This document shows, in pieces, positions 21,106 to 61,497 of a stretch of 64,000 bases of DNA. How positions within the stretch are numbered: position 1 is the stretch's first letter; each line of letters opens with the position of its first letter. The notes under the pieces were generated by a model. That model made no database searches. It worked only from the letters and a program-made list of their open reading frames with translations, and was not told the origin of the DNA. The stretch comes from Thermogemmatispora onikobensis (GTDB lineage Bacteria; Chloroflexota; Ktedonobacteria; Ktedonobacterales; Ktedonobacteraceae), in contig NZ_BDGT01000023.1 of assembly GCF_001748285.1 (NCBI RefSeq), positions 1 through 64,000 on the forward strand. The letters are read 5' to 3'. A program made the translations under genes and the position numbers.

Positions 21106-21362
21106 CAGCGTACCCTCCAAACAAACGTACCCCGCGGGGCGGCAGACCTGGCAATCAACTGCTTTATATCAAAGTATATTACCACTATTTTCACTAGAAA
21201 TAAAACGCGCCCAAGCCACAGATTTAGCAGATCGCACCACGGCGACCAATCCCTCAAGAAGAGGCGCCTTCGGCCAGGCCACCACCGAGGGGAGAGAGAG
21301 CAGGTCAGCCGGGCAGGAGAGACCAGCCGGCACCAGAGTCAGAAGAAGGGGGTATCAGAGGG

Positions 21363-44093: not shown

Positions 44094-44432
44094 CGACAAG
44101 CCTCCCTCGTAATCTGATCACCTCTGGCCGAATGGACACGCTCACACTTACCGCTCTGGTTTATCCAAATCAGGAGAGCCTGACTCAACCCTGCAGCGCA
44201 CCCTTGGGGCCTGACTATCAGCCCCATCCACTGCGTCAGCCCGCCTGGCCCTCTCCTGCCGCCATCGTGCGTCTCAGCACGCTTGCTTGATCTGTCCTGC
44301 GGACAAGCGCTTGTACGACCGAGCCAGGCGAGCAAGGGTAATAGCTCTTGCGCTCTTACCTGCCCACAGTGCTCTGGCCGGATGTGAGCCGGCCCAACGG
44401 TCGCCTGGCCTTCCTCTGCTCTCTCCTTCTGT
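44094..44432. other. Gap between the regulator and iolC
   Basis: No gene. A hairpin (GGGGC with GCCCC extended by TCAG/CTGA with one bulge, 44206-44225) may be a weak terminator of the regulator gene. A promoter for iolC-iolD-iolE-iolG may lie between it and 44093, but I cannot define it. Confidence 0.4.
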
Positions 44433-45524
44433 TCACCTTCCCGTCGCAGGGCGAGAGGTCGGTGGCGGAGCGGTGCTTTCACGCACCACCAGCATCGGGG
44501 AAAGGACATGATTGCAGCCCTCTTGATCATGGAGCAGATCAAGCAGTACCTGCATCGCCAGACGCCCAAGCTCGATACGAGGTTGACGCACCGTGGTTAA
44601 GGGGGGGCTAATATAGCTGGCCATCTCGATATCGTCGAAGCCGACGACACTCAGCTCAGCAGGGACCGCCAGGCCACGACGGTAGCAGGCCATTAGGATT
44701 CCGATGGCCATCATATCATTCTGGCAGAAGACGGCAGTCACTCCCGCATCGAGCAGGCGCTGAAGCGCGCGGCGTCCACAAAGAAGATCTTCCTGGGGGG
44801 AAGCTTCTTCTGCCGCTATGATCGTCACCCACTCCTCACGTGGCACCAGACCAGCGCTAGCCAGAGCGGCCTGATAACCTTCCAGCCGTTGGCGGCAGGA
44901 ACGCGGGCGGCTATGTGTGCCTAGATAGCCAATGGCGCGATGGCCGAGAGCCAGCAGGTGCGCAACCGCCAGCTGCGCCCCTGCAAAATCATCGACCGCC
45001 ACCCAGTGGAGCAGCTCATACTGCGACTCAGCCTGGCTGTTGATCAACACCGTCGGTACGCGAATCTGATCAAGTCGCTGCTTATACTCCCCTGTAATAC
45101 GCGAAGAAGCCACCAGGATGCCGTCAACACGCCGGCGATGGAACGTCTCGATCACCTCAATCTCCCGCTCGGGATCGTTATGCGTGGCGCTCAAGAAGAC
45201 GCTTAGGCCAGCCGAGCGTGCGACCTCTTCGACCCCGCGCACAACCTCACTCAGGAAGGGATCGGCAATTGAGGTTACCGCCAGGCCAATCGTGCTGGTG
45301 CGCCGTGTTTGCAAGCTTTGGGCGATCGCATTGGGTGTGTAGCCCATCTCCAGCGCCAATTGTTGGATACGCTTCCGCGTCTCTTCGCTGATCAAGGGGC
45401 TATCGCGCAAGGCGCGCGAGACGGTGGTATGGGAGACGCCGGCCACTCGCGCAATATCGGCAATGGAGATTTCACGCGAGCGTTTCGCTCCAGCAACTCG
45501 ACTTGTGGCAGATGAGCTGCTCAC
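44433..45524 (-). CDS. LacI-family regulator of the inositol locus
   Basis: 363 residues. The HTH (ISIADIARVAGVSHTTVSRAL) starts at about residue 18, followed by the sugar-sensing domain (GLAVTSIADPFLSEVVRGVEE; VVGFDDIEMASYISPPLTTVRQP). The frame opens at an ATG at 45590. However, that codon lies inside an operator, 2 bases from the predicted transcription start, so the GTG at 45524 with AGGAG 6 bases upstream is the better start. It should respond to inositol or a breakdown product and repress iol genes and itself. This replaces the DeoR-type IolR of Bacillus. It is divergent from the radical SAM gene. Confidence 0.9.
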   Translation of the reverse strand: MSSSSATSRVAGAKRSREISIADIARVAGVSHTTVSRALRDSPLISEETRKRIQQLALEMGYTPNAIAQSLQTRRTSTIGLAVTSIADPFLSEVVRGVEEVARSAGLSVFLSATHNDPEREIEVIETFHRRRVDGILVASSRITGEYKQRLDQIRVPTVLINSQAESQYELLHWVAVDDFAGAQLAVAHLLALGHRAIGYLGTHSRPRSCRQRLEGYQAALASAGLVPREEWVTIIAAEEASPQEDLLCGRRALQRLLDAGVTAVFCQNDMMAIGILMACYRRGLAVPAELSVVGFDDIEMASYISPPLTTVRQPRIELGRLAMQVLLDLLHDQEGCNHVLSPMLVVRESTAPPPTSRPATGR

Positions 45525-45575
45525 TCTGCTCCTGTTCCTCCTGCTTCCCGATGCCAGCCGCTCTGGCTTTGGTTT

Positions 45576-45624
45576 TGCACACGTGTGCATTAGCAGTATA
45601 GTGGATGGCCTGGGTTCCTGTCAA
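45576..45624 (-). promoter_or_regulatory. Promoter and perfect palindromic operator of the inositol regulator
   Basis: On the minus strand: consensus TTGACA (45619-45624), 18-base spacer, TATACT (45595-45600). The palindrome TGCACACGTGTGCA (45576-45589) covers the predicted start site. This is the expected position for autorepression by the LacI protein encoded next. Confidence 0.85.
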
Positions 45625-45726
45625 GGGGGGGTTGCCGCTTTTTTTTGCCGGCAACAGAAGTTTTTGTCTGAGAGTGTGCTATCCTGAATGAATGGGCGAG
45701 TTTGTGCTTACAATCAGGGGGAAACT

Positions 45727-46587
45727 ATGCATGTCTCTAGTGTGGAGGCCAGCGGCATCCTTACACCGCAGCGTGGGGGTTTTTTGGCTGCACCTCCCTA
45801 TCCGTTTACGCATGCCTTGTCCGCTTATACAGGCTGCGCCTATGGCCAGACAGCGTGTGGTCAGTATTGTTATGCGCGCTTCTTGCCAAACTGGAAGACT
45901 GCTGGCCTGGGTGTTCCCTGGGGTCTGGCTGTGCAGGTGAAAATTAATGCCCCGCTGCTACTGGAGCAGACACTGGGTCGTATGTCCCCCGAGCGACGGC
46001 GCGGTCTGCGCATTTTTATGAGTACCACCACCGATCCATACCAGCCGCTTGAGCGGCGCTATCAGGTGACACGCCGCTGTCTGGAGGTCTTTGCTTCTTA
46101 CCCTGACCTTGATTTGTTGGTGGTGCAGACGCGCTCACCACTGGCCGAGCGCGACCTCGATCTACTGCACCAGATTCCTTATGCCTGGCTTTCGGTGACG
46201 ATCGAGACGGATGATATGGCCTATCTGCGCCAGTTGGGCGGTGGGCCTGCGCTGGAACGCCGCTGGCAGCTGATACGCCAGGCCAGTCGCCTGGGGGTAA
46301 AGACGCAGATTACAATTAGCCCTTGTCTGCGTTTTACTGATGTCGAGACCTTTGGAGGTCGGCTCCTTGAGAGCGGTGCACGTCGTTTGCTGGTGGATAC
46401 GGTTGAGGGCGACGGCGCAGGCGGTGAGCGCACGGCACGCACTCCTTTTGCACACCTGGAACCGGCTTGGCAGAACACGCAACCCGCACATGCTCTTTAC
46501 GCCTACCTGCGTCTGCATGGGCCTGGTCGCGGCCTGGCTGTCGGTTGGGGCGCAAGCGGCTTCTGCGGTATCGCTCCCCGCTCCTAG
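45727..46587 (+). CDS. Radical SAM protein, SPL-related
   Basis: 286 residues. The N-terminal AYTGCAYGQTACGQYCYAR holds C37, C44 and C48 as candidate ligands of the 4Fe-4S cluster. The spacing C-x6-C-x3-C is wider than the usual C-x3-C-x2-C. The following barrel strands (IFMSTTTDPYQPLE, LLVVQTRSPL, LSVTIETDD, TQITISPCL) are like spore-photoproduct-lyase-related radical SAM proteins, which act on nucleic acids or unknown substrates. The ATG at 45727 has a GGGGG-containing site close upstream. It is encoded alone, 243 bases before the large kinase gene, which has its own promoter. Confidence 0.8.
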   Translation: MHVSSVEASGILTPQRGGFLAAPPYPFTHALSAYTGCAYGQTACGQYCYARFLPNWKTAGLGVPWGLAVQVKINAPLLLEQTLGRMSPERRRGLRIFMSTTTDPYQPLERRYQVTRRCLEVFASYPDLDLLVVQTRSPLAERDLDLLHQIPYAWLSVTIETDDMAYLRQLGGGPALERRWQLIRQASRLGVKTQITISPCLRFTDVETFGGRLLESGARRLLVDTVEGDGAGGERTARTPFAHLEPAWQNTQPAHALYAYLRLHGPGRGLAVGWGASGFCGIAPRS

Positions 46588-46677
46588 CCTCCTTCTTTTC
46601 ACTGCCGTTGCATACCAGCTGGCAAGGGCCTCGGCTCTTTGAGGCGTGCCTGCGCTGATGGTGTGGAAAATGGATGC

Positions 46678-46707
46678 TTGTTCGCCAGGAGAAAAACATG
46701 TTATAAT
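46678..46707 (+). promoter_or_regulatory. Promoter of the NERD-kinase operon
   Basis: A perfect TATAAT (46702-46707) is preceded at 18 bases by TTGTTC (46678-46683, three of six consensus bases). Transcription would start near 46714, leaving a 117-base leader that is AT-rich compared with the rest of the window. Confidence 0.55.
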
Positions 46708-46830
46708 TCGACATCCCTTTTGCAGCTATATGATGGTAATATCTCACTGTAATGAGGGCTATTTCGCAAGGGATGCTATGCGTCGTTACTGTCCCAATCT
46801 CTCTTTGATAAGGAGTAAGGAGGCGCACCT

Positions 46831-49800
46831 GTGGCTGAGTTGATCAGTACGAGCGACTTCGCAAGCGAGGGAGAGCAGCGGGCAGCTGCGGCCTTGCGCC
46901 AGGGGTTGCCCGCCTCGTGGCTGGTGATCTGTAATAAGGTCTTTCCAGCGAAGAATGGGAAATCCTTCGAGATTGATTTTCTAGCAATAGGCCAGCGCTG
47001 GATCTTTGTGATCGATGAGAAGTCCTGGCAGGGTCCCTGGCGGGGCAACGAGGAGTTCTGGACTCGGGCCGATGGGACATCAGAGCGGAGTCCGCTGGCA
47101 AAGGTCGATTACGTGGCTAAGGTGGTGGCCGGCTCCCTGCGAGAAAAAATCCCTTCTCTGAGGGGGAACGAGCACTTTGTGCAGGGCGTTGTCCTCCTCT
47201 CTTCGCCAACTGCTCAGCCGGTGATTCACGATGTGCGGGCTTCGACGGCCCTTTTTAGGCTGGACGAGGTGTGCGAGCGCCTGCAGGAGTTAGATGAACA
47301 CCAGGGCAATCCTTTGGTCGGTCAGTTGCATTCGCTGCTGAGAACTACGCTGACGGGCCTGCCCGCGCGCCCCAAGCTTCCACGTCAGATCGGCACTGGG
47401 TTTCAGATTGAGGAGGCAGAACAGGTACGTCCGAAGCTCTACCGCTGCCGCGCGCTCGAGAAGGTTTCTGGGACCAATCGACCTCGCATTGTTATGCTCT
47501 ATGAGCTTGATCTCGATCCACTAGAACGTCAGGAGGCGCAGGAATTCTATACGCGCACGTATAAGGCGCTGGAGCAATTACAGCCAACAGGCCTGGTGCC
47601 GCGAGCCGAGACCCCTTTCCCTTGGTCAGATAGGTTTATGGTGGTAGCTATTGTTCCACCCGAGGGTGAGGGCCGTGCGTTGAGCGCTCTGCCGCTGCCG
47701 GAGACGCGCGAGGAGTTTCTGAAAGACCTGCAAATGGCGGCTATAGCCTTTAAAGGGTTGGCCCAGATCCATGATCAGGGCGTCCTTCATCGCGCGTTAA
47801 CTCCCGCTGCGCTCATGGTGCAGTTTCCAAAGGGTCAGCCGCCCCGTGTGCTCTTCACCGACTTTTATGCAGCGCGCGTCAGTGGTATGTCCATTGCAGC
47901 GAGGCTCGATAAGACCGCAGTCGACGATCCCTACGCTGCCGAGGATGTGCTCATCAGCTACGAGTTCGCGACACGGCAGACGGATACCTTTAGCCTGGCG
48001 CTGGTGATGCTTGAGCGCCTCTCCGGTACTCCTATTTCCCTGCTGCGCCCGACAGTCAATGAACCACCATGTCTGCCTGATGACCCCCGCTGGCGGTCTT
48101 TCCTTCCTCCTGAGCCATCGGCAGCCTTGTCAGAGCTTTTCCGCTCAGTCCTGCTGCCTTCGCGGGAGGAGCAGCCCCCCAGCGCTGAGGAGCTGGCTCA
48201 CCGCCTGGAAGAGATCCTACGCCAGGCCCAACAGCCCCAGGTCAGTGAGCTTCCTCAGACCCTGGTGAACGGCAAGTTCGTCGTCCACCGCTTGCTCGGC
48301 CAGGGAGCAATGGCCCGTACGTATCTGGTGAGCGAGAAAGACCAGCCAGGACGGGGACAATTGGTGCTGAAACAGTTCTCGCAGCCAACTGAGGCCCATG
48401 ATCATGCAATTCAAGAATACAAAGCTTTAAAAAATATAAAGAGCAAGTATTTTCCGGCCATCCAGGAGCCAGGGGAAGACCCTCATATTGCGATGGAGTA
48501 TATCCCTGGCCCGACGCTGCAGCAGCTCGAAGGAGAATTTCCCTGGCCTCTAGAGCGCTGGTGGCCCTTCGCCCAGGACCTGCTGAAGGCCCTGGCGACG
48601 CTAGAGGAATATGGCATTCTTCACCGCGACATCAAACCTGCCAATATTATTCTGCACGAGGTCGATAATCATCCAGTCCTGATCGATTTCGGCTTTGCCA
48701 TCCGGCGAGGCGAAGAGCGTAGCCTGGCTGGTACGCCGCTCTATCTGCCGCCCGAGGCGCTGACTGCTGCCAGTCCGCCCGCCGATTGCGATCGCTATGC
48801 GGCTGCTGTCGTGCTTTTTAAGATGTTGACAGGCCAGTTGCCTTTTACCTACAGCACGGAGGGGCAACGTATTCTGCGTCCTGTAGAGGACTTGCCAGGT
48901 GCTGATGAGCATGTGCAGCGCCTGGCTGCCGTGCTCTTGCGCGCGCTTGATCCCGAGCCCCAGCGGCGACCTGTCAGCGCTCGTCAGTTTCTGGCAGAGT
49001 TGGAACAGGCCGAGCTGGCGGCAGTAGTGGCGGCAGAGGAGACAACGCCGGTCCTTGAAACTGGTCAGGAACGGGAGGCGCGAGTCAATCCCTGGGTGGA
49101 GCAGGTGCGCGGTCTCTATCGCAAGAGTGCCAGCGGGAACGCCGACAATCGCGGCCTGGACAGCGACTTTGTGCGTCAGACCTACGTAGAGACGGACCTC
49201 GATCGGAAGCTGCTGCCGCTTGTGCTGGCCCGGCGCCCGCTCGCGCTTTTCCTCTCGGGCAATCCTGGCGACGGCAAGACGGCTTTCTTGGAGCAGGTGC
49301 GCCAGAAGCTGGTTGAGCTAGGCGCCAATCCCGTAGCAGAGCGCTCCGATCAAAGCGGCTGGGAGCTGGTCTATCAGGATCATGTCTTCCGTAGTTGCTA
49401 CGATGCTTCTGAGGCCCACGGCGGGTTGAGCGCCGATGAGCAGCTTACGCGCCGGCTCCAGGAGTTGGAAGGCTCCGAGCGTCCAGCGGCAGCGCTGACA
49501 GTGCTGGTGGCTATCAATGATGGTCGCCTGGCCGATTATTTTGAGCGCTACGGTGAGCGCTTTAGCTGGTTGAAGAGGCAGCTGAGTCGCTCCCGCCGCA
49601 GTGAATCGCTGCGAGAGCAAGAGGTCTGGCTGGTCGATTTGAAGCGACGCGCTTTTGTGGCCTTGCCCGGCGAGCAGGCGCGGGAGCGCTCACTCTTCCA
49701 CCGCGTGCTGAATAGCCTGGTGGCAAAGGAGCACTGGACGATCTGCCAGTCTTGCACTGCCGAGGCCATCTGTCCGATTTATCAGAATGCACAGATGCTG

Positions 49801-50808
49801 CATCAGAACCGCACCAAGCGGCGGTTGGAATTCCTCTTGTTGCTGCATCATCTGCGCCACCAGCGTCATATGACGATGCGTGACCTGCGTTCGGCTCTGG
49901 CCTTTCTGATCACAGGCAATCTGAGCTGCAGCGAGGTGCATGCTGCTCGCCAGGGCGAAGATGGGGGAGCGGCTTTGCTAGAGCGCGCGTGCTGGCAGAG
50001 CGCTTTTGCTCCCGCCGAGGTTGACGATGAGCTGCTGCGCGATCTGCGGGCGTTTGATCCTGCACGCTTTCCTCAGCCTCATCTGGATCGCTTCCTGCAT
50101 TTCCATCAAGGGTCATCAGATGCCCTGCTGCGCGTTGAGTTGATGGCTGACGGAAAAGATTTGCCGCGCCAGCGTTTCCGCGAAGAGCGCGATTGGCTGG
50201 CTGCCTGGAAGCGCCGCCTCTATTTCTATGGTCCACGTCTGGATGATGAGGATCTGCGTCCAGAACTGCCTTCCGTGCGCTGGCCCGATCTTCTGCCTTA
50301 CCGCTATGCTCTGCTCTACCTGCAGTTGCTGAAAGGTGAACAGGAAGAGTTGGAGGAGACACGCCGCAAGCTGGCTCTTGGCATTTTGCGGTCGGATGGG
50401 ATCAACGCCGATTTGCCAGATGGCCATTTGAGTGTGGTGGTGCGCGCTTCGGAGGAGCAGCAACTGATTATTCTGAAGCAGCTCCCGCTGGAGCAGTTCA
50501 TTCTGGAGTCAGTCGGCACTAGCGATAATGAGGTCGTTGAGACCTTACCCGAGTTCCTGGTACTGCGTCATCGCTCGGGAACGCCTCGTCTGGAGATCTC
50601 TCTCGATCTGTTTGAGCTGCTGCTGCGCCTGGCGGATGGTTTGCAGCCAGAGGCTCTAGAGCTGCAGCCGCTGCTGGAGGATCTGCGCCATTTCAAGCAT
50701 GCGGTGCTGCTGATGGAAACAAAGGATCTTGTGTTGATCGAGAAAGGTCAGCATCTGCACCACTTGACGCAGCGCGACGGTAAGGTGGTCAGAACAGCCA
50801 TTGCTTGA
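46831..50808 (+). CDS. NERD nuclease-like, pseudokinase, Ser/Thr kinase and DptF-like NTPase fusion
   Basis: 1325 residues. A NERD domain (~10-110) has the core FEIDFLAIG and VIDEKSW, so D49, E63 and K64 are candidate active-site residues. A first kinase-like domain (~200-465) has HRALTP (A322 for the catalytic Asp) and DFY for DFG, so it is probably inactive. A second kinase (~475-735) is intact: GQGAMARTY, VLK, HRDIKPAN with D600, DFG and PPE. Then follows a P-loop NTPase (GNPGDGKT, ~810-817) with a Cys cluster at 972, 975 and 981. The NERD-kinase half resembles PglW of BREX type 2, while the NTPase half and position resemble DptF. It starts at a GTG with AAGGAGG upstream. It probably senses or licenses the two downstream proteins by phosphorylation. 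Confidence 0.85.
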   Translation: MAELISTSDFASEGEQRAAAALRQGLPASWLVICNKVFPAKNGKSFEIDFLAIGQRWIFVIDEKSWQGPWRGNEEFWTRADGTSERSPLAKVDYVAKVVAGSLREKIPSLRGNEHFVQGVVLLSSPTAQPVIHDVRASTALFRLDEVCERLQELDEHQGNPLVGQLHSLLRTTLTGLPARPKLPRQIGTGFQIEEAEQVRPKLYRCRALEKVSGTNRPRIVMLYELDLDPLERQEAQEFYTRTYKALEQLQPTGLVPRAETPFPWSDRFMVVAIVPPEGEGRALSALPLPETREEFLKDLQMAAIAFKGLAQIHDQGVLHRALTPAALMVQFPKGQPPRVLFTDFYAARVSGMSIAARLDKTAVDDPYAAEDVLISYEFATRQTDTFSLALVMLERLSGTPISLLRPTVNEPPCLPDDPRWRSFLPPEPSAALSELFRSVLLPSREEQPPSAEELAHRLEEILRQAQQPQVSELPQTLVNGKFVVHRLLGQGAMARTYLVSEKDQPGRGQLVLKQFSQPTEAHDHAIQEYKALKNIKSKYFPAIQEPGEDPHIAMEYIPGPTLQQLEGEFPWPLERWWPFAQDLLKALATLEEYGILHRDIKPANIILHEVDNHPVLIDFGFAIRRGEERSLAGTPLYLPPEALTAASPPADCDRYAAAVVLFKMLTGQLPFTYSTEGQRILRPVEDLPGADEHVQRLAAVLLRALDPEPQRRPVSARQFLAELEQAELAAVVAAEETTPVLETGQEREARVNPWVEQVRGLYRKSASGNADNRGLDSDFVRQTYVETDLDRKLLPLVLARRPLALFLSGNPGDGKTAFLEQVRQKLVELGANPVAERSDQSGWELVYQDHVFRSCYDASEAHGGLSADEQLTRRLQELEGSERPAAALTVLVAINDGRLADYFERYGERFSWLKRQLSRSRRSESLREQEVWLVDLKRRAFVALPGEQARERSLFHRVLNSLVAKEHWTICQSCTAEAICPIYQNAQMLHQNRTKRRLEFLLLLHHLRHQRHMTMRDLRSALAFLITGNLSCSEVHAARQGEDGGAALLERACWQSAFAPAEVDDELLRDLRAFDPARFPQPHLDRFLHFHQGSSDALLRVELMADGKDLPRQRFREERDWLAAWKRRLYFYGPRLDDEDLRPELPSVRWPDLLPYRYALLYLQLLKGEQEELEETRRKLALGILRSDGINADLPDGHLSVVVRASEEQQLIILKQLPLEQFILESVGTSDNEVVETLPEFLVLRHRSGTPRLEISLDLFELLLRLADGLQPEALELQPLLEDLRHFKHAVLLMETKDLVLIEKGQHLHHLTQRDGKVVRTAIA

Positions 50809-50829
50809 TCTGCTGGAAGGAGGGCCATC

Positions 50830-52542
50830 GTGAAGGTTAAGTTGCCGAAGGAATTGCGCGGAGTCCGCTTTTCTCTGGTACTGCCCATTGAGTTGAATGA
50901 TTTCGATATCGAGCTGTTGCTGCCTATCCTCTTCTTTACTATTCTGGCCGAGGGTCGGGGACGCGCTCGTATACCAAATGACCCTCGGACCATCGATGTC
51001 TATATTAATAAGCTTAGCCAGCATCCTGCGCTTGAGGGTTTCACCACTCCTCGCGAACGACGTCTGCTGGAACGTCTGGTACGCACTGCCCTGATCACAA
51101 CCGGGCATACCGGTCGAAAGCGTGAAGCTGAGCAGATTACCTCTATTGTGACTTACAGCATACTTTCTTACAAGCCTGGCTTCCCCAAGGAAGCCAGTCG
51201 CCTGCGGAGCGCGGACCTTTTTCTCTACCAGGCGATGCACAGGTACCTGAAAGGCGATCAGGCCCTGCGCCAGCTTCTCAAAGAGATTTTCGGTCGCGGC
51301 GTTAAACTCGGCAAGGCGGGCGACCTGGGTGGGGAATACGATGGCACTACTGAGGTAGATACGTTGACGCGCCTCTCGCTGGCCTTTCTCGATGGCTTTG
51401 AGAGTGCCCGGCCAGGCTTGAGTCGTGAAAAAGATGCCCATTCCGGAGCCTGTCCCGGACTGACCTACGAGCTAGCGGCTGACCTTGTGCAATATATGTC
51501 GGCTTACCACAGGGCGATGCCCATGCCGGCTTTTATTCATCATCTCTTGACCTTGATCAATTTCGAGCTGTTTATCTACACTCTGAAGGTTGTCTACGCG
51601 GTGAATGCATTGGTCGCGCAGCCAGAGAGCTTGCCTCCCGCGATGGGCGAGCCTCCGGCCCCATCACCCCCAACCCTCTATGTGGACTTCACCGGCCAGC
51701 CTGGCCCCAGCCAGGAGATGGCCCATGCCTGTGTACGCCGCGATATCGAAGCCTACCAGAGCTTTCTCTCGGCGAATCTGCTGCTGCGCCAGCTGCAAAG
51801 CTATGTGGAGCAGCTCAGACGAAACAGTCGCCGTCGAGCTCTCATAGATGGCCTCCTTGGAGACGCAACCGCAGGCCCACTTTACCTGCAACGTTTACTG
51901 ATGCTACGCGACCAACCCAGTATCTATGCTGATATTGAGGCTCACGCCAGTCATGATATTAACAGAATCTTTGAAGAGAATAAAGATCCAGAAGAGCCAG
52001 AAAGCACACTAGCAACAAAATACCTGGATGAGCTGCTCGCCAGCGCTGAGAGCGATTTAGATGGCCTGGTCATCCTGCTGAAAGAAGGCCAGCGCGATGC
52101 TACCCAGAATTTCGTGCGCTGGTACTGGAGCACTGGAGGATTGACGCGCACTGAGGGGCTGCTTCGAGGGCAGCTCAAATATCGCCCATCCTGGCAATAT
52201 GCTCCGACCAACGATCTGTTGGCGGTTCTGGTGCAGCTTGCCGCTGCCCGTCTGAATGGCAGCGAGAACGGCCTGAATGGAGACCAGAGCAATCATGGTC
52301 CCACGCCCATCCGCCTGCAGGACTTCCTGCGCTTCCTCGACGAGCGCTTTGGGCTGCTGGTTGACCGTCCGCCCGCTCCTTTTGTGGGCGCCGAGTATAC
52401 TGCCGCGGCCCAGGAGAATCTACGGGCGATGCTGCGCCGCCTGCGCCAGATGGGTATCTTCCGCGACCTCTCCGACGACTTCACGGTCCAGCGTCTGCAC
52501 CCACCGTATGCGGCCACATCCGCGCTAACCAGCTACTACTAA
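50830..52542 (+). CDS. Middle protein of the operon, DptG-like by position
   Basis: 570 residues; I do not recognise a catalytic motif. It opens MKVKLPKELRGVRFSLVLPIELND and is mostly helical with leucine-rich stretches. It has a Pro-rich loop at ~260-280 (MGEPPAPSPPT), a probable coiled segment at ~300-340, and a C-terminal winged-helix-like end (LRAMLRRLRQMGIFRDLSDDFTVQRLHPPYA). It begins 21 bases after the kinase stop at a GTG with GGAAGGAGG upstream, and its stop is 29 bases before the next start, so it is cotranscribed. DptG holds the same place between DptF and DptH; similarity is by order, size class and helical nature only. It may be a scaffold linking the NTPase and the HerA protein. 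Confidence 0.75.
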   Translation: MKVKLPKELRGVRFSLVLPIELNDFDIELLLPILFFTILAEGRGRARIPNDPRTIDVYINKLSQHPALEGFTTPRERRLLERLVRTALITTGHTGRKREAEQITSIVTYSILSYKPGFPKEASRLRSADLFLYQAMHRYLKGDQALRQLLKEIFGRGVKLGKAGDLGGEYDGTTEVDTLTRLSLAFLDGFESARPGLSREKDAHSGACPGLTYELAADLVQYMSAYHRAMPMPAFIHHLLTLINFELFIYTLKVVYAVNALVAQPESLPPAMGEPPAPSPPTLYVDFTGQPGPSQEMAHACVRRDIEAYQSFLSANLLLRQLQSYVEQLRRNSRRRALIDGLLGDATAGPLYLQRLLMLRDQPSIYADIEAHASHDINRIFEENKDPEEPESTLATKYLDELLASAESDLDGLVILLKEGQRDATQNFVRWYWSTGGLTRTEGLLRGQLKYRPSWQYAPTNDLLAVLVQLAAARLNGSENGLNGDQSNHGPTPIRLQDFLRFLDERFGLLVDRPPAPFVGAEYTAAAQENLRAMLRRLRQMGIFRDLSDDFTVQRLHPPYAATSALTSYY

Positions 52543-52571
52543 GAAGCATTGAGCCTGGAAAGGGTCTACCT

Positions 52572-55500
52572 ATGGTAATCTCTTCTCCACAGAGCGAGCT
52601 GAAGATCGAGCTACTGGCCGAGGCGCTGCTAAAAGAAATCAGGGGGACAAGCGCCGGCCATTGTGCTCGTATTGACTTCCTGGAACTGGACGATGCGCTG
52701 CCCCTCTGCCAACGGCTACGCACAAGTGAGCAGGCAAAGCAGGGAACCATGTTCCATATCCTGGCTACTGAACGCCAGCCTGGACCCGATGACTTGCTCT
52801 TTATCACACCTGACCGCGCGATTGAGCTACGCAACCGCAAGATTGGACGCTTCTGCCTCTTCATTCCTGCTGGCAGTGTAGACGCTACTGCCAGCTCGCT
52901 GGCCAATGCCTTCGCTCCCATCGATGGACGGGCGCTTTATGAGGCCGCCCTCCAGCAGCTACGGCGCCGACTCCAGGAGCGCTCTCCCGAGGCCGCCGCC
53001 CAGGTTCAGGCAGTTTTTAGCCACCTGCGCCGCTGGCCTGGCTTAAGCTATGAGCGACGCCTGGACTTCGTTATCGCCGTCTACGCCCATGTACAGGATG
53101 GCACGGCGGAGACGATTGGCCTGGAGCTCTGGCGGGTCGGCCTCATCAGCGATGCACGCCCCGATTTCGTCAATTTTCTGGAAGCCAATCGGCGCCTGAC
53201 GACGCTGTTAGCTCGTCCCAAGAAGTTCGATGCCACCCTGGTCGAGCGTGTGCAAGAGCTGAAGGTGGAGAGCACAACCGCCACAGAGCTGCTGCGCTTC
53301 CTCCAGGGCAAAGCCCTCAGCGATGTGCATAACTGGTCACGCGCTCTGGTAGAGAAAGAGCTGACGCTCGATCGTTGGGAATTCGTCCAGCATGAAAAGA
53401 GCGACCTGCATAAATTTGAGGTCGAATCTTTCGTCAATGCCAAAGGAGCAGTTGAACACTTCTGTCACCTGGCTCAGCCAGACGGCGTTGGTGGTGCCCT
53501 GTACGCTTACTACGGAAGCAACGGTGATGTGGTGGTACGCTGGAAGTGCAAGCCAGATAAGCCGCGCAACCTCGGCGGCTGGCGCGTGGCCATCGTGCCC
53601 CAGGACAGCGAGCCAGGTTTCCGCGAAAGCCTGTGGGAGCAGGACTTCACCCCTGGGCGACGCAAGGTCACGATCAAGCTAGAGAAGCTGGGACTCGATA
53701 GCGAGGAGCTGCCCGATTATCTGGTCTGCGTGCGCATCGCCCCCTTGGGGCCTGACGGCAATGAGATGGTGAAGGACAACGATGGGGAGAAGCAGCTCTA
53801 TTACGAAGATAGTCTCGCGTTCTACTTGACCCTTGATCCAGCTCACCTTCCTCCCGAGCAGACTCCCCGCGAAAAGCGCCAGACTGTCCCTACCCTTTCC
53901 TGGGGACGGCTCAAAGTCGGTAGCGAGGTCCGCGAGACAATCCTGGAGGAAAGCCTGCCCCAATGGCAGAAGGAGCGCGCCTATTTCAGCCTGCTGCTCA
54001 ATGGCAAGCACCGACTGACGCTGACGCTGAGCGAGACGCTGCAGCAGCTGGAGCAGCGCGTTCTGAAGGAACCGGCTCAGGGTGGCTGTTTTCTTCTGGA
54101 AGTTGATGATCTGCAGCCCGTCGATGGGGAAGCTATTCAAGCGTTTCAGCTTGCCCCTGGCGAAAGCGAGAGCTGGCAACATTTCTGGCGCCAGCGCGAG
54201 CTGTTCTTCCGACGCCTGCGCCAGTCCGAGGGACGCGACCTCATCGAGGTGGCCGATTGGAGCAACAGCCCTGAGCTGGCCGACGCCGCTGTCCGCTACG
54301 CTCAGGCTTACCATGACCTGCTCCAGGACCTGCGAGCACGCGCAGCTGATGAGAGCGAAATCAAACAGGCTCTCTCGATTGACAGCCTGCTCATCCGCTT
54401 TCTACATCAGCGGCAGGCCGAAGAGGCCCTGGTCATCCTGCCAACCCACCCGCTGCGTGCCGCCTGGTTTGCCGGCTACACCCGGCTGCTTTCCTCCTGG
54501 GAGGAGGAGCTGCTGGAACAACAGGAGAGTCAGCGTAAACAGAAAGTCGATCTGGAAGCACTGCGCCTGCTCGTCCCGGCCAACGTCCCTCCCTTTGCCT
54601 ACCACGCCGCCACACCGACGGTCTTCATTTTCTTCCAGAATCTGCTTTTCTTCCACGGAGTGGCGCTTCCCGCCGATGCCCCTGATCCGCATCGGCGTTA
54701 TACCGACGTCGCTACTGTGCTCAAGGCCAGCCCGGACCAGGCCGTCCCGGGCGATATCCGTCCTGAGCGGCTTGGCGAGCATCTCAAGCTCTTTCAGGCC
54801 CTCCATCCCTACGCCAATCCGCTGGTCTTGACGCTGGTGAACCCGGATCGTGGCGCGCTGCTGGGCGAGGCCCTGAAGGGTCTGGCCCCCTCGCAAAATG
54901 AAGCGGAGGAGACAGAGCTACCAGTCGGCACCCTGCCCCTGCTCCAGATCACTTCATACAGCGAAAGCTGGCAGAGCGGCACCTTGCAGACTCTGGCCCA
55001 AACGCTGCAACAGCATGGCAACTGGCTCTTCCGAAACGCAGGCTACCAGACAGACCATTTCCTGCCGGCCCTCTCAACCACCGCCCGCCCGCTGCGCCTG
55101 TTGCAGGAAGGAAAGCAAGAGCCACCCGAGGCTCACCTGGCCATCGTCAGCGACCTGATGCGTCCTCGCGTCGTTGCGACGTCGACGCCGGGCGCGTCCT
55201 CGCCGAGCAGCACAGTTAGCAGCTTCTCCCTCTATGGTCTGCTCGCACGCTTTATCTCTCAGTTCAGTCAGGAGAACGGTACCTTGCTCTGGCGCTACCA
55301 GATCAACACCTTCGGCGGTAAGCCCCTTCCTCATCCCGAGGGACCACGCTATAGCGAGACACTAGTCAATCTGCACACAGCGCTTCTGAAAGCCGGTGGC
55401 TACTTACTCAGCGGTAGAGCGGAAACTCAGCCCACTCTGGAGGTCGCGCTCACGGACAAGCGCCGCGCTCTGCTGGAGAAGCTGCATCAAAGGACGAACT

Positions 55501-57683
55501 GGGTCATTACTCTGGACCGCTTCTTTACGCTGGACTACTACGACTCGCCCCACTTGCCCGGACTGGAGGACATAGCCCGTAAGTATGTGCTGGACTATTC
55601 GCCTGAGTTCACCGAAGGGCTGGGCCATCGCATGATGGTGACCACCTCCTGGCACCAGGAAATCAGCTCGATGCTCGCCCAGGCTATGGACGAGTTGGGC
55701 TTCTCGCAAATCGAGGAGAGTGTCAGCCACCTGCTGCACTACTTGAAAATCATCTCGGGACGTCTGGCATTGGAAGCACTGGAGTCCCCAGCCAGCACCG
55801 CCGCCGCCGTGGGCCTGGGCGTGGTCACAGCCTGGCTCCAACGCCAGGGCCGCCTCAAGCAGGCCGTCCTGCTACCCGTCGACCTCTACCCGCGTATCTT
55901 CTCACCGAACAGCACAGGGCAACCCGTCCAGAGCGAGCGCCGCTGCGACCTGGCACTCATCACCCTGAAGCGGAACATTGTCGAGACGACTTTTATCGAG
56001 GTCAAGTGGCGTCGTGGCACCGCCCCACTTGAGCGCCTGGCCGCCGATATGGCCTTGCAGATGGAAACGACCGCTGAGACGATGCGTCAGCGCTTCTTCG
56101 ATCGTCAGCAGCTCGATGGCGCCCTGCAACGCGCCTATCTGGCCAATGTCCTGCGCTTCTACTTCGAGCGCGCCCGTCGCTACCAGCTTTTCAATCCCGA
56201 GGCCGAAGGCACTTTCCTGGAAAACCTGGCCCGCTTCGAAAAAGAAGAGCTGGACTTCCGTCCCAGCTATGAGGGCTATATCGTCAGTCTTGAGAGCGAG
56301 CCTCGGAAGCAGCCGCTGATCATCGGAGACGCCCGCATCCGCCTGCTGACTGCCAGCGACTTCCAGAACCTGCCCGAACTTTTACAGGAGCCAGCCCTCA
56401 ATCTCGAGGAAGAGGCCCTGGTCTCCGAGGAGTGGGCAGAATGGGAGCAACAGATAGGAGAAGGAGACGCATTCACCGCAGAACCAGCGGGCCAGCCAGC
56501 CGCTGAGCCTGGTCTTCCATCCAGACTTGAGCGGCAGTTAGAGAAACTCGGCAGGACAGAAGCAGAGAACACGTTGCTCATTCGCACCGGCCAGAAAGAG
56601 AGCCAGATGGCAGCCGGGCCTGTCTCTATGTCCACACGCATTCAGCTGGGGCAGGCCGCCAGTGGCCCAGTTTACTGGAAGCCGGGCATCCAGGGTAGCC
56701 CGCATCTCTTCATCCTGGGTATCCCCGGACAGGGGAAATCGTGGACAATTGAGCATCTACTGAGTGCCCTAAGCCAGCAAGGCGTCCCGGCCCTGGTGCT
56801 GGACTTCCACGGCCAGTTCGCCGATCCCCAGGGGCGCTACTTCCAAAGCGTTCATCCGCAGGTTCTCGATGCAACGAAGGGTCTGCCTTTCAGCCCCTTT
56901 GAATGCAGCGTCTCCGGTCCAGCCTGGCGATCCAACGCCCTGGCAATTTCCGAGATCTTCGCTCAGGTCGCCGGGCTTGGAGAGATGCAACGCGATGTCA
57001 TCTACACGGCTATCCGTGACGCCTACCGGGTCCACGGCTTTGAGGATGAACTGAGTGCCCAGGAACGCAGCGCGTTGACTTATCCTTCCCTCTACGAGGT
57101 CTTCCATCGTATTGAGCGACTGGAGCAGCAGCGCCGGGTGGGTCACGTGACCGCACGCTGCCGGCCATTGCTGGAAATGGACCTCTTCCAACCCGCAGAG
57201 TCCCCTGCCAATCTCTCCTCGCTGATCGGGCATGGACTGGTCATCGACCTGCATCAGCTCTACGCGGAGCTGCTGCAGCTCAGCGCCGGCGCCTTCCTCC
57301 TGCACAAGATCTATAAAGACATGTTCCACTGGGGCCCTGCCGAGCGGCTGCGGCTGGCCATCGTCCTGGACGAGGCCCATCGCCTGGCCAAGGACAAGAC
57401 CCTGCCCAAGCTCATGAAAGAGGGACGCAAGTTCGGCATCTCAGTGATCGTCGCCAGCCAGAGCCTGGGCGATTTTCATCCCGAGATTCTCAACAACGCC
57501 GGCACACGCATCATCTTTCGCCTGAACCATCCCGAATCGCGCAAAGCCGCGGGCTTCATCCGCGCTGGCCAGGCCAAGCAGGTCGCGGAGCGGATCGAGC
57601 AACTGAGCGTCGGCTCTGCCTACGTTCAGACCCCCGAAATGCGGCAGGCCCTGATTGTGCGTATGGGAGCTGGCTCCTCATAA
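52572..57683 (+). CDS. DptH-like protein: nuclease-like domain and HerA/DUF87 ATPase
   Basis: 1703 residues. The N-terminal ~1000 residues are unassigned, but the opening part (CARIDFLELDDALPLCQRL, then FITPDRAIELRNRKIGRFCLFIPAG) is like that of large defence helicases. A PD-(D/E)xK-like core lies at ~1080-1180, with D1126 in RRCDLALITL and E1143-x-K1145 in TFIEVKWRRG. A HerA/FtsK-type ATPase (~1365-1700) has Walker A GIPGQGKS (1383-1390), Walker B IVLDEAH (D1600, E1601), then VIVASQSLGDF and a TRIIFRLNHPE arginine motif. It may pump or cut DNA as a ring. Length and domain order match DptH of the phosphorothioate-dependent restriction system. It is the last gene of the operon, and stem-loops follow. 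Confidence 0.87.
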   Translation: MVISSPQSELKIELLAEALLKEIRGTSAGHCARIDFLELDDALPLCQRLRTSEQAKQGTMFHILATERQPGPDDLLFITPDRAIELRNRKIGRFCLFIPAGSVDATASSLANAFAPIDGRALYEAALQQLRRRLQERSPEAAAQVQAVFSHLRRWPGLSYERRLDFVIAVYAHVQDGTAETIGLELWRVGLISDARPDFVNFLEANRRLTTLLARPKKFDATLVERVQELKVESTTATELLRFLQGKALSDVHNWSRALVEKELTLDRWEFVQHEKSDLHKFEVESFVNAKGAVEHFCHLAQPDGVGGALYAYYGSNGDVVVRWKCKPDKPRNLGGWRVAIVPQDSEPGFRESLWEQDFTPGRRKVTIKLEKLGLDSEELPDYLVCVRIAPLGPDGNEMVKDNDGEKQLYYEDSLAFYLTLDPAHLPPEQTPREKRQTVPTLSWGRLKVGSEVRETILEESLPQWQKERAYFSLLLNGKHRLTLTLSETLQQLEQRVLKEPAQGGCFLLEVDDLQPVDGEAIQAFQLAPGESESWQHFWRQRELFFRRLRQSEGRDLIEVADWSNSPELADAAVRYAQAYHDLLQDLRARAADESEIKQALSIDSLLIRFLHQRQAEEALVILPTHPLRAAWFAGYTRLLSSWEEELLEQQESQRKQKVDLEALRLLVPANVPPFAYHAATPTVFIFFQNLLFFHGVALPADAPDPHRRYTDVATVLKASPDQAVPGDIRPERLGEHLKLFQALHPYANPLVLTLVNPDRGALLGEALKGLAPSQNEAEETELPVGTLPLLQITSYSESWQSGTLQTLAQTLQQHGNWLFRNAGYQTDHFLPALSTTARPLRLLQEGKQEPPEAHLAIVSDLMRPRVVATSTPGASSPSSTVSSFSLYGLLARFISQFSQENGTLLWRYQINTFGGKPLPHPEGPRYSETLVNLHTALLKAGGYLLSGRAETQPTLEVALTDKRRALLEKLHQRTNWVITLDRFFTLDYYDSPHLPGLEDIARKYVLDYSPEFTEGLGHRMMVTTSWHQEISSMLAQAMDELGFSQIEESVSHLLHYLKIISGRLALEALESPASTAAAVGLGVVTAWLQRQGRLKQAVLLPVDLYPRIFSPNSTGQPVQSERRCDLALITLKRNIVETTFIEVKWRRGTAPLERLAADMALQMETTAETMRQRFFDRQQLDGALQRAYLANVLRFYFERARRYQLFNPEAEGTFLENLARFEKEELDFRPSYEGYIVSLESEPRKQPLIIGDARIRLLTASDFQNLPELLQEPALNLEEEALVSEEWAEWEQQIGEGDAFTAEPAGQPAAEPGLPSRLERQLEKLGRTEAENTLLIRTGQKESQMAAGPVSMSTRIQLGQAASGPVYWKPGIQGSPHLFILGIPGQGKSWTIEHLLSALSQQGVPALVLDFHGQFADPQGRYFQSVHPQVLDATKGLPFSPFECSVSGPAWRSNALAISEIFAQVAGLGEMQRDVIYTAIRDAYRVHGFEDELSAQERSALTYPSLYEVFHRIERLEQQRRVGHVTARCRPLLEMDLFQPAESPANLSSLIGHGLVIDLHQLYAELLQLSAGAFLLHKIYKDMFHWGPAERLRLAIVLDEAHRLAKDKTLPKLMKEGRKFGISVIVASQSLGDFHPEILNNAGTRIIFRLNHPESRKAAGFIRAGQAKQVAERIEQLSVGSAYVQTPEMRQALIVRMGAGSS

Positions 57684-57688
57684 ACAAG

Positions 57689-57709
57689 CTCCCGCGTCAA
57701 GGGCGGGAG
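57689..57709 (+). terminator. Stem-loop right after the DptH-like gene
   Basis: 7-bp stem CTCCCGC / GCGGGAG (57689-57695 with 57703-57709), 5 bases past the stop. No T tract follows. The sequence resembles IS200/IS605-type terminal hairpins, as does the terminator at 13070. Confidence 0.45.
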
Positions 57710-57720
57710 GAATAACAGAC

Positions 57721-57789
57721 AGACGGGTCCTGTGGCAGCAGGAAAGCAGGCTTACAAGGCTGCTCATCAGCTACCAGCAGGACCCGTCT
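57721..57789. terminator. Inverted repeat between convergent genes
   Basis: 12-bp perfect arms AGACGGGTCCTG (57721-57732) and CAGGACCCGTCT (57778-57789) enclose 45 bases that can form further small hairpins. It lies between the stops of the HerA gene and the pentapeptide gene, so it may end transcription from both sides. Confidence 0.45.
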
Positions 57790-57866
57790 GCAGTCTGCTC
57801 CCTCCCCAGCAGCCGCGGAGCATATCCTTCCGATCGCGTTCCCGACAGACCCCTCAAGGTCTCCAT

Positions 57867-59006
57867 TCACAGAGGTCGACGCACCACGTTGGAGCCGATC
57901 CCCAGACGCCAGCCGGTATAGGGATCGATCACAATCTCCTCCAGCGCGCTGCGATCAAGGCCGTTGAACTGCTCGGGCTCCGCCTGGATCTGTTGTAAAT
58001 CGGCTCGCACAAAGAGACTATTGGTCAGCACCGCCGCAGTCAGACGCGCCTGCTGCAAATTGGCGCCGCGACAATCGGTAGCGTACAGATAGGCCTCGGA
58101 GAGGTCGGCGCCTTTAAGCAGCGCCTCTACCAATGAGGCTCGGCTGAGATCACAGCCACTCAGATCAGCACGCGAGAGATTGGCCCTGGCGCAGTCGACC
58201 TTGCTCAGATCGGCCCTCCTGAGCACCGCCTGGAACAGATACGCGCGATTCAGGCTGGCCCCTCGGAGATTGGCCTCATGGAGGGCCGCATCAACCAGAT
58301 TGGCGCCATAGAGCGAGGCCCCACAGGCATAGACCCCGTTCAGATTGGCCTTACTCAGGACGGCCAGATTGAGACGCGCCCCACTGAGATTAGCCCCACT
58401 CAGGTTAGCCTCGCGCAGATGAGCGCCGACCAGATTGGCCCCACTCAGATCGGCGCGACTCAGATCGGCCTCGTCCAGAATTGCGCCGCTCAGATCGGCC
58501 CCACTCAGATCAGCCCCAGAGAGATTGGCACGGCTCAGATTGGCCAGACTCAGGCGAGCCTGGCTTAAATCACAGCGCCGCAGATCGACCCCAATGAGAC
58601 CAGCCTCAACCAGCACCGCCCCGTGGAGATCGGCACCCCGTAGATCCACTCCTCCCAGATCCGTCGAGCGCAGGTCAGCCTCACGTAGCGAGGCCCCCAG
58701 GAGATTCGCCCCGATCAGATTGACCCCGATCAGGAAGGCTTTACTCAGGTTGGCCCGGCTGAGATTGGCATGACTGAGATCAGCCTTACGTAGATAGGCT
58801 CCACAGAGATAGGACCCGCTTAAATTGGCCTCCGAGAGATTGGCCCCGCGCAGATTGCCACCACTGAGATCTACCTTCTGCAAATCAAGCCGACTCAGAT
58901 CGGCCCCATCAAGCATAGGAACGCGCTCCTGCCGGTAGGCCTGGACGATCTCCACCAGGGCCTCCTCGCGTCCGAGTCCTCCTAACTGCGGCTCAACCTC
59001 AAGCAT
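57867..59006 (-). CDS. Pentapeptide-repeat protein
   Basis: 379 residues. After a ~35-residue helical start (REEALVEIVQAYRQERVPML) nearly the whole protein is A(D/N)LS-type pentapeptides, of the form A-(D/N)-L-(S/R)-(G/R/E), about 60 units. They should fold into a right-handed square beta-helix about 15 coils long. No catalytic residues are visible. The family includes DNA-gyrase mimics and scaffolds; the role here is unknown. The ATG at 59006 lies 5 bases after the stop of the DUF4388 gene and 14 bases from the nearest GGAAAGGA, suggesting translational coupling. Confidence 0.93.
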   Translation of the reverse strand: MLEVEPQLGGLGREEALVEIVQAYRQERVPMLDGADLSRLDLQKVDLSGGNLRGANLSEANLSGSYLCGAYLRKADLSHANLSRANLSKAFLIGVNLIGANLLGASLREADLRSTDLGGVDLRGADLHGAVLVEAGLIGVDLRRCDLSQARLSLANLSRANLSGADLSGADLSGAILDEADLSRADLSGANLVGAHLREANLSGANLSGARLNLAVLSKANLNGVYACGASLYGANLVDAALHEANLRGASLNRAYLFQAVLRRADLSKVDCARANLSRADLSGCDLSRASLVEALLKGADLSEAYLYATDCRGANLQQARLTAAVLTNSLFVRADLQQIQAEPEQFNGLDRSALEEIVIDPYTGWRLGIGSNVVRRPL

Positions 59007-59011
59007 ACAAC

Positions 59012-59647
59012 TTACAATCCTTTCCTCTGAATGATGCCACGCTGCTCCAGATCGCTCAGCAGCTGGCTCACTACCTGCGGCTCCTTGCCCATCAGCTGAG
59101 CCAGATCGAGCAGCCGGCGCCGGCCATCAATCAGCAAAAAGAGCTGACGATGGGCGCGCGAGAGACGATACTGCTCGATCAGAAGCAGAGCTTGCTGGAA
59201 GGGCAGTACAGGATAAGGCACCGCGTGGTAGGAAGCATCAGAAGAACGAGCACCCTGCTGCCCCGGCTCGCTCGCAGCCACCCCCGGCTGAGAGCCACGA
59301 GCCGCGACAGATGGCGGCCCTGACGAGGACGCTGGCGTCGCTGGACGCGGCGGCTGTGTAATGCCAGCAGCCAGCCAGGCCAGTAACTGTTTCGTTGCCT
59401 CATCAAGTACCACGGGAGTAAAACTATAGCGACACCTCCCCCAGGTACTCAGCCAATTGAGCGCGGCATGATCTTTGCGGCGACCAGCGCTGGCCTGGGT
59501 GACCTGACCTTTCACAAAGGTGATCACTCCTTCCTCGAAGAGGTCGCCAGTTCCTCGCCAGGCCGTGAGTGTGCCGCTGCCACGCGCGAGCTGGATCAGC
59601 TGAATAATCGTGACCAGGTGATCCGTCACGCCTTCCTGCTCTGACAT
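59012..59647 (-). CDS. DUF4388 (PATAN-like) protein
   Basis: 211 residues. The N-terminal ~80 residues (VTIIQLIQLARGSGTLTAWRG, then GVITFVKGQVTQASAG, then ALNWLSTWGRCRYSFTP) are a DUF4388 domain, found in gliding and signalling proteins of multicellular bacteria. A Pro/Ser-rich linker leads to a C-terminal ~60-residue winged-helix-like domain (RQLFLLIDGRRRLLDLAQLMGK, then VSQLLSDLEQRGIIQRKG). It has GGGAGCAGG upstream. It is coupled with the pentapeptide gene, so both proteins probably act together, possibly in regulation. Confidence 0.8.
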   Translation of the reverse strand: MSEQEGVTDHLVTIIQLIQLARGSGTLTAWRGTGDLFEEGVITFVKGQVTQASAGRRKDHAALNWLSTWGRCRYSFTPVVLDEATKQLLAWLAAGITQPPRPATPASSSGPPSVAARGSQPGVAASEPGQQGARSSDASYHAVPYPVLPFQQALLLIEQYRLSRAHRQLFLLIDGRRRLLDLAQLMGKEPQVVSQLLSDLEQRGIIQRKGL

Positions 59648-59901
59648 AAGCCTGCTCCCCAGAGAAACCAGCCATAACCGTCACACCCCAGATCAAGACA
59701 TCCTTGCCAAAGGACGTACGAGCCTGGATAGCGCCCTCGTAGCAGAACCAGACCATCCGGAAGAGAAGAAAAGGAAAGCAATGCCTTTGCTCAAGCAATT
59801 CCATTCTGTCGACGCAAATGCCCCTTTCATGATCTGGGGTCTGTTATCTCTGCGTCGCTCTCTCGCTGGCCCTTGGGCTAGCCAGCCAGTCACACCGGGT
59901 C

Positions 59902-61497
59902 CTAGCGATTCGCTACATGCTCGTCCTGTAAAGGAAACGCTCCGGCAGGAGTGGTTTGACGGAGCTGACGCGCCTGCTGCAGGAGTCGTTCCTCTGAGAA
60001 ACCGGTTACTGGGCGGATTGCATAGTCAGTCGGACTGGTGTTATCCTGCCCACGCGGCAGGCCGAGCAGGTCAAAGAGGGGCGTCAGAGCACAACACAGG
60101 ACCAGATTGAGCACCAACCCGGCGAAGGCAGCGTAGACATGGAACGAGAGGCCCCCCAGGGTCAGGGAGTAGACCGTTCCAAAGTTCTGGGTAAGGACCA
60201 TCCAGGTGCCAAGGACCATACCTCCAGCCCAGCCGCAGATCAGGGCCAGGTGGTGGAACCAGCGCGTATAGAGGCCCAGGAGCACCGCAGGCAGGATCTG
60301 AATGATCCAGACATTGGCAAACAGCTGCAGATTAATGGCGAAATCCGTCGGGAAGAAGAGAATGAAGAGCAAAGCTCCAAACTTAATGACAAGGGAGGCC
60401 GTCCTGGCTACCGCCGATTCCTCACGCTCTGTACAGTTGGGATGGAAATATTCACGATAAATGTTGCGAGTAAAGAGGTTAGCCGCTGCAATCGACATGA
60501 CACCAGCGGGAACCAGGGCGCCAATGGAGATGGCAGCAAAGGCGAAACCGGCCAGCCACGGCGGCAGCATGCTGGCGAAAAGCGCTGGTAGAGCAATATT
60601 GGTCTTGTAGAGAGGAGATGGCTTAATACCAGCAGCAATAGCCATAAAGCCAAATAAGCCGATGAGCGACTGCAGGAAGGTATAGGCCAGCAGGAATGGC
60701 AGCGTACGCTTCAGCGTACGACGGCTATTAGCGCTCAGCATCGCGGTAAAGGCGTGCGGATAAAGGAAGAGCGCCATCGCAGAACCAAGAATGAGGGTTG
60801 AAAAGGTGCTGTACTGCGCAGGAGAGAGCGTGAGCTTATCAGCAGGAACAGCAGCAAAGATACGCGGCAACCCTCCGAGGCGGAGAGAGATGATGACAAA
60901 ACTCACAATGGCTACCAGCCAGATAGAGAAGTCCTTAAAGATAGCGATGAGGGCTGGCCCACGCAAGCCGCTGACATAGGTGTAGAGAGCCAGGATCAGG
61001 AAAGCGATGAAGAGAGCCAACTCGACATTGATCCCCATCTGGGCAATACAGACCTGGATACCGTAGATCTGGATGGCGATGTAAGGCATGGTGGCCATGA
61101 TGCCGGTGACCGCCACTACCAGCGCCAGGGCACTACTACCGAAACGGTCACGCACAAAATCGGCTTGAGTAACATAGCCACGATGGCGAGCAATGACCCA
61201 AAAACGAGGCATCATGATCAGGGCAAAGACAAAGGCCAGGGTCAGATAGGGTGAAGCAAAAAAGCCCTGTGCCCCTTGGGCATAGACCAGAGCCGGCACC
61301 GCCATGAACGTGTAAGCAGTGTAGAGGTCACCGCCAATGAGGAACCAGGACACCACTGGTCCAAAGCGCCTTCCCGCCAGGGCCCACTCCTGAAGCCGGC
61401 TCAGATCGCCAGGCCGCCAGCGCGCGGCCAATAGGCCCATGATAGTCATTACTATGAAAACGCCTACAAAGACCGCCAGCATTCCCCATTGAATCAT
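59902..61497 (-). CDS. Sodium:solute symporter, monocarboxylate-type
   Basis: 531 residues with about 13 hydrophobic membrane helices. It belongs to the SSS family (AAR...GRRFGPVVSWFLIGGDLYTAYTF, then ADFVRDRFGS near helix 3-4), nearest to the acetate/pyruvate/lactate permeases of the MctP and ActP type. It brings a small organic acid into the cell with sodium. The C-terminal ~50 residues are cytoplasmic and Gln/Arg-rich. The ATG at 61497 has AGGAGAAGAG upstream. A DUF3311 gene, its usual partner, is divergent from it. Confidence 0.9.
   Translation of the reverse strand: MIQWGMLAVFVGVFIVMTIMGLLAARWRPGDLSRLQEWALAGRRFGPVVSWFLIGGDLYTAYTFMAVPALVYAQGAQGFFASPYLTLAFVFALIMMPRFWVIARHRGYVTQADFVRDRFGSSALALVVAVTGIMATMPYIAIQIYGIQVCIAQMGINVELALFIAFLILALYTYVSGLRGPALIAIFKDFSIWLVAIVSFVIISLRLGGLPRIFAAVPADKLTLSPAQYSTFSTLILGSAMALFLYPHAFTAMLSANSRRTLKRTLPFLLAYTFLQSLIGLFGFMAIAAGIKPSPLYKTNIALPALFASMLPPWLAGFAFAAISIGALVPAGVMSIAAANLFTRNIYREYFHPNCTEREESAVARTASLVIKFGALLFILFFPTDFAINLQLFANVWIIQILPAVLLGLYTRWFHHLALICGWAGGMVLGTWMVLTQNFGTVYSLTLGGLSFHVYAAFAGLVLNLVLCCALTPLFDLLGLPRGQDNTSPTDYAIRPVTGFSEERLLQQARQLRQTTPAGAFPLQDEHVANR

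Follow-up and report, generated by a model that had tools for sequence, protein, structure and literature searches.

A MAD6-MAD7-MAD8-like gene trio of Thermogemmatispora onikobensis in a lineage mostly without a linked DNA-marking enzyme

Three large genes follow one another on the forward strand of the 64,000-nucleotide stretch of Thermogemmatispora onikobensis DNA analysed here (hereafter the window). A first-pass annotation had proposed them as a candidate new anti-phage system and knew of no described system with this layout. Is the arrangement new, and what kind of machine would it encode? As detailed below, anti-phage machinery related to all three genes has been described already, and the layout itself was known before.

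Architecture of the trio

The genes and their main features, by position in the window, are as follows.

46831..50808 (+): gene 1, GTG start, 1325 aa, MAD6/DndF-like
46864..47199 (+): NERD nuclease-like domain of gene 1, residues 12-123 (Pfam PF08378, E 6.1e-16)
47428..48210 (+): pseudokinase of gene 1, about residues 200-460, where the alignment shows HRA instead of HRD and TDFY instead of DFG
48280..48972 (+): Ser/Thr kinase of gene 1, residues 484-714, with VLK, HRDIKPAN and IDFG (Pfam Pkinase, E 2.9e-35)
49171..50745 (+): DndF-like P-loop core and C-terminal domain of gene 1, residues 781-1305, with Walker A GNPGDGKT, INDGR and C-x2-C-x5-C
50830..52542 (+): gene 2, GTG start, 570 aa, MAD7
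52572..57683 (+): gene 3, ATG start, 1703 aa, MAD8/DndH-like predicted nuclease-translocase
54249..55751 (+): middle of gene 3, residues 560-1060, methyltransferase-like Rossmann region
55947..56006 (+): PD-(D/E)XK-like catalytic residues of gene 3, D1126...E1143-V-K1145
56697..57641 (+): HerA/FtsK-like ATPase of gene 3, residues 1376-1690 (Pfam DUF87, HerA_C; PDB 7es4, DptH, E 7.9e-8)

The coordinates, lengths and close spacing first reported for the three ORFs were reproduced, with gaps of 21 bases between genes 1 and 2 and 29 bases between genes 2 and 3, and purine-rich, Shine-Dalgarno-like stretches precede all three starts. They are real genes and not chance ORFs, because a colinear trio of the same lengths recurs in other Thermogemmatispora and many other taxa, and because all three are under purifying selection (dN/dS about 0.10-0.33 over whole genes). 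A consensus scan returned three promoter-like sites against 2.6 in shuffles, and no site fell in either intergenic gap; a single promoter for the trio is plausible, judging from the gene spacing. The neighbours in the window are metabolic, radical-SAM, pentapeptide and SSF genes. Elsewhere in the window (18964-21120), a UvrD-like helicase ORF matched the GajB and NERD+UvrD models.

Profile matches identify gene 1 as a PglW-like NERD/pseudokinase/kinase head joined to a DptF-like NTPase core, in the order NERD, pseudokinase, Ser/Thr kinase, P-loop NTPase core with a Cys motif, and C-terminal domain. Both ends had been recognised in the first-pass annotation and both assignments held. The PADLOC PglW model matched the N-terminus with an E-value of 1.1e-51 over residues 5-671, although the NCBIfam PglW model reached only 163.8 bits against a cut-off of 990, over the same residues only. 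Residues 781-1305 aligned with annotated DptF (hhalign 99.1%, E 1.8e-18, each hhalign E-value given here being one pairwise comparison and not a database search), the NCBIfam DptF model scored only 14.3 (cut-off 50), and PADLOC SspF matched residues 785-1039 with 108.8 bits. The NCBIfam MAD6 model passed its curated cut-off (491.9 bits; cut-off 460). The NERD residues D49 and DEK62-64 are kept in most of the window lineage in a motif alignment.

Gene 2 passed the curated cut-off of the NCBIfam MAD7 model (482.6 bits; cut-off 410) and had no Pfam family. Its AlphaFold2 model was confident (mean pLDDT 86), and a Foldseek search with it returned no PDB fold match with E <0.001. The match to DptG was weak (hhalign 18.5% over 142 columns); the triple wHTH is a feature of DndG, with which gene 2 was compared through this weak alignment and through the model without a PDB fold match. 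The DptF-DptG-DptH layout proposed earlier was thus borne out for genes 1 and 3, whereas the equation of gene 2 with DptG was not established.

The sequence of gene 3 is of the MAD8/DptH type, keeps the PD-(D/E)XK motif intact and includes a HerA translocase. It aligned over its full length with the MAD8 family of MADS loci (hhalign E 6e-117), while its score with the NCBIfam MAD8 model (45.9) lay below the cut-off of 175. The resemblance to DptH, also claimed earlier, was recovered by hhalign (E 1.8e-38 over 1122 columns), and PADLOC DndH matched with an E-value of 2.2e-35; the NCBIfam DndH model TIGR03237 had no match in the window genome. Residues 560-1260 were modelled by AlphaFold2 with a pLDDT of 84, and the PDB fold matches of the middle region were mostly to SAM methyltransferases, though weak (E 1e-3 to 4e-2). 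The [DNS]PP[FYW] motif is absent throughout the gene 3 sequence. This middle region agrees with the inactive methylase part described for DndH (PMC10853773), by analogy with which it is probably inactive. The D...EVK residues are kept in both gene 2 lineages (see below) and lost in two loci (L067, L072), and the HerA P-loop is present. In three relatives (L065, L078, L072), BLAST similarity to gene 3 of the window ends near residue 1246, with HerA motifs still present, and the C-terminal part may have diverged or been exchanged there.

Relation to described systems

The claim of an undescribed layout did not survive comparison with MADS, in which MAD6-MAD7-MAD8 correspond to the window trio in gene set, order and size class, as judged from profile libraries and a review (PMC12904381). 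PADLOC and NCBIfam already give MADS names to the same trio; the NCBIfam calls for MAD6 and MAD7 are at equivalog level, and the homology to MAD8 is full length. The window trio nevertheless differs from MADS in lacking both the MAD2 methylase and the MAD5 specificity subunit as linked genes, in carrying GIPGQGKS as the HerA P-loop of gene 3 where MADS has GVQGxGKS, in its sub-threshold MAD8 score and in its placement in a separate clade. A profile search for MAD4 in the window genome gave no match. Matches to the mad1, mad2 and mad3 models in the genome were set aside as uninformative alone, these models firing on generic HTH, methyltransferase and ATPase proteins.

A second precedent is the DndF whose core is fused to a NERD domain and to an inactive and an active kinase in tandem, published by Rakesh, Aravind and Krishnan in 2024 together with a 1700-residue DndH and with DndFGH as a stand-alone system (PMC10853773). 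A 2026 survey of BREX notes the same NERD/inactive kinase/active kinase order in PglW as in that DndF fusion (PMC12839542). Gene 1 has the domain order of this NERD-kinase-DndF type of DndFGH/DptFGH and gene 3 is DptH-like, but gene 2 matches DptG weakly, the phosphorothioation genes of the genome are not adjacent to the trio, and the genome has no DndH above cut-off. SspFGH is likewise a three-gene restriction module, and its SspF model matches the core of gene 1, whereas SspG and SspH matches in the trio were very weak. With BREX type 2, gene 1 shares the NERD-pseudokinase-kinase head of PglW, but at the far sub-threshold, N-terminal match given above; PglX, PglZ, BrxC, BrxD and BrxHI were not found beside the trio among the window ORFs scanned, which were part of the window's ORFs.

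In this trio, gene-level homology joins MADS, DndFGH and PglW, which are usually treated apart. A "MADS" label drawn from MAD6 and MAD7 alone would presume a methylation step, and none was found here.

Lineages, neighbours and distribution

A gene 2 profile scan of contigs from one genome per species returned 37 loci, and a tree of 36 gene 2 proteins separated two clades (100/100 support each) across a long branch. The clade of the window (n=20) includes Ktedonobacteria, Chloroploca, Herpetosiphon, Armatimonadota and Frankia. In most loci of the second clade (n=16), an HsdM-like gene and an ORF of about 460-490 aa lie directly upstream of the trio; at L092, these upstream genes scored 741.3 with MAD2 (cut-off 720) and 381.1 with MAD5, just below its cut-off of 400. 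The tree label "with MAD2/5" covered this whole clade and fits most, not all, of its loci: L088 has a 1287-aa protein of no named family and L090 a Schlafen/HATPase protein, while contig ends cut the loci at L084 and L091.

In the fetched flanks of the window clade, counted per flank, several of them short or limited by contig ends, no hsdM or hsdS and, at most loci, no methylase motif was seen, barring type IIG-like methylases that directly adjoin the trio at L071 and L073. No N6_Mtase match was found on the window's contig (C23). The trio thus sits in a separate, old lineage, mostly without a linked DNA-marking enzyme, and the question therefore arises of how the cell's own DNA is spared.

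A look at the defence-island context that had been suggested for survey showed defence neighbours beside some relatives and no such island around the trio in Thermogemmatispora. Some members of the window lineage have BrxL and Mrr nearby, or a type IIG methylase and an integrase, and a SIR2 gene accompanies a plasmid relative (see below). In Ktedonobacter sp. SOSP1-85 (L061, L103), BrxL lies directly upstream of the trio, and further large ORFs run in the same direction, which may be a BREX locus. All six Thermogemmatispora genomes carry the trio at one shared site (the HOG45 copy, G004, is partial at a contig end), flanked by a radical-SAM/LacI/sugar-catabolism block and a pentapeptide-repeat/SSF block, with metabolic genes around and no defence island.

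In Chloroflexota the trio is patchy, occurring in 21 of 400 genomes. Compared with T. aurantia, the window has dS values of 0.04-0.06 for the trio against 0.72 for PfkB and 0.53 for SSF, low values extending over the trio and near neighbours within positions 43047-61497; the contrast with T. carboxidivorans is small (0.15-0.19 versus 0.26-0.28). One reading of the dS contrast suggests a recombination tract over the trio. A plasmid search with gene 2 gave no match, and the HerA part of gene 3 as query retrieved trio relatives on conjugative plasmids of Rhizobium. On a conjugative plasmid of Rhizobium phaseoli (L105:1-13107), a diverged trio lies downstream of a SIR2 gene.

Self marking and restraint of the trio

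The search of the window genome for a self mark covered type I R-M, type IIG enzymes, MAD2/MAD5 and DndC. By profile search, no convincing unlinked MAD2 or MAD5 was found. Several side observations accompany this search: at L096:6544-10236 (G000:C53), a TIR-like (ThsB-model) N-terminus is fused to a type IIG restriction-methylase in a 1231-aa protein that adjoins a type I R-like ORF and has similar N6_Mtase matches in all six Thermogemmatispora genomes, and at L098:1703-8764 (G000:C26), a DrmMI-like methylase adjoins a DpdE-like helicase.

The trio could be an ordinary MADS-like restriction module whose self mark is supplied from elsewhere in the genome by a type I or type IIG methylase, a reading that we regard as unlikely. 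The genome does offer such enzymes, namely several type IIG methylases and type I R-M at two loci, and one of the methylases adjoining the trio at L071 and L073 shares 31% identity with the type IIG enzyme on contig C12 over 1312 aa. The individual candidates fared less well. The best mad2/mad5 loci, on C10 and C54, were rejected as MADS partners because each is an ordinary type I R-M locus that has its own HsdR, and the MAD2 model at C10 scored 135 bits against a cut-off of 720, as a generic hsdM only; type I HsdM is moreover missing from two of the six trio-bearing Thermogemmatispora genomes (G005, G001). The C12 methylase, the one type IIG enzyme whose co-occurrence with the trio was examined, was rejected as a trans partner because the two do not go together in relatives: high-scoring orthologues occur in relatives that lack the trio, and several trio carriers gave weak or no matches. 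A type IIG enzyme of 1231 aa, matched in every one of the six Thermogemmatispora genomes, is a candidate mark source. Much the same question applies to phosphorothioation, since the trio is DndF- and DndH-like in sequence: it might be a phosphorothioate-reading DndFGH module paired with a dnd locus of the same genome, where a run of dndA, dndE, dndD and dndC-like genes (L102; G000:C16:62000-81900) includes a DndC of 549 bits and where a canonical DndH is missing. Against this pairing, gene 2 is MAD7 and not clearly DptG, and DndC was rejected as a genus-wide partner, the five other Thermogemmatispora keeping the trio with DndC below cut-off or absent; we consider it the least probable of the readings weighed here.

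A takeover of the trio for housekeeping in Thermogemmatispora, for example in DNA repair or genome maintenance, would fit its presence in six of six genomes at a shared site by metabolic genes, as well as the purifying selection. In T. tikiterensis (G001), however, gene 3 (L049:11201-19164) is broken by about 2.7 kb of inserted DNA that carries a TnpB-like ORF, a natural disruption of the trio; this interruption, the patchy presence elsewhere and the relatives on plasmids speak against a housekeeping role, which appears improbable.

The reading that we favour, with somewhat better than even confidence, is a DndFGH/MADS-type restriction complex of deep lineage, whose linked methyltransferase module was lost or never present and whose restraint is probably infection-dependent. 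Sequence comparison gives strong support to the homology of the trio with the MADS/DptF/DptH machinery, and by this relationship a defence role is likely. Infection-dependent restraint is proposed because no self-mark enzyme is linked to the trio and none was shown to accompany it consistently. SspFGH and unrestrained DndFGH harm host DNA lacking the phosphorothioate mark (PMC8092258), and a mark-free relative would therefore need some other restraint. Control of the trio would then be independent of a linked methylase. The methylases at L071 and L073, the metabolic site in Thermogemmatispora and the dndA-E-D-C-like module of the window genome count against this favoured reading. A bolder form of it, held more tentatively, sees the trio as a mark-free machine in a deep sister lineage of MADS, in which infection sensing by kinase and NTPase replaces methylation as the test of self and non-self.

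As a mechanism for the favoured restriction complex, the three proteins would assemble into one machine and load onto invading DNA, the HerA part of gene 3 translocating and its nuclease cutting that DNA. The NTPase and C-terminal domains of gene 1 would sense infection and its kinase would relay the signal, a kinase gating of the kind proposed in the first-pass annotation, while the NERD domain may act as a second nuclease. The machine would probably be held in check through infection-dependent activation and not through a cognate methyl mark. A lineage that keeps this restriction trio mostly without a methylase makes restraint without a cognate mark a testable question.
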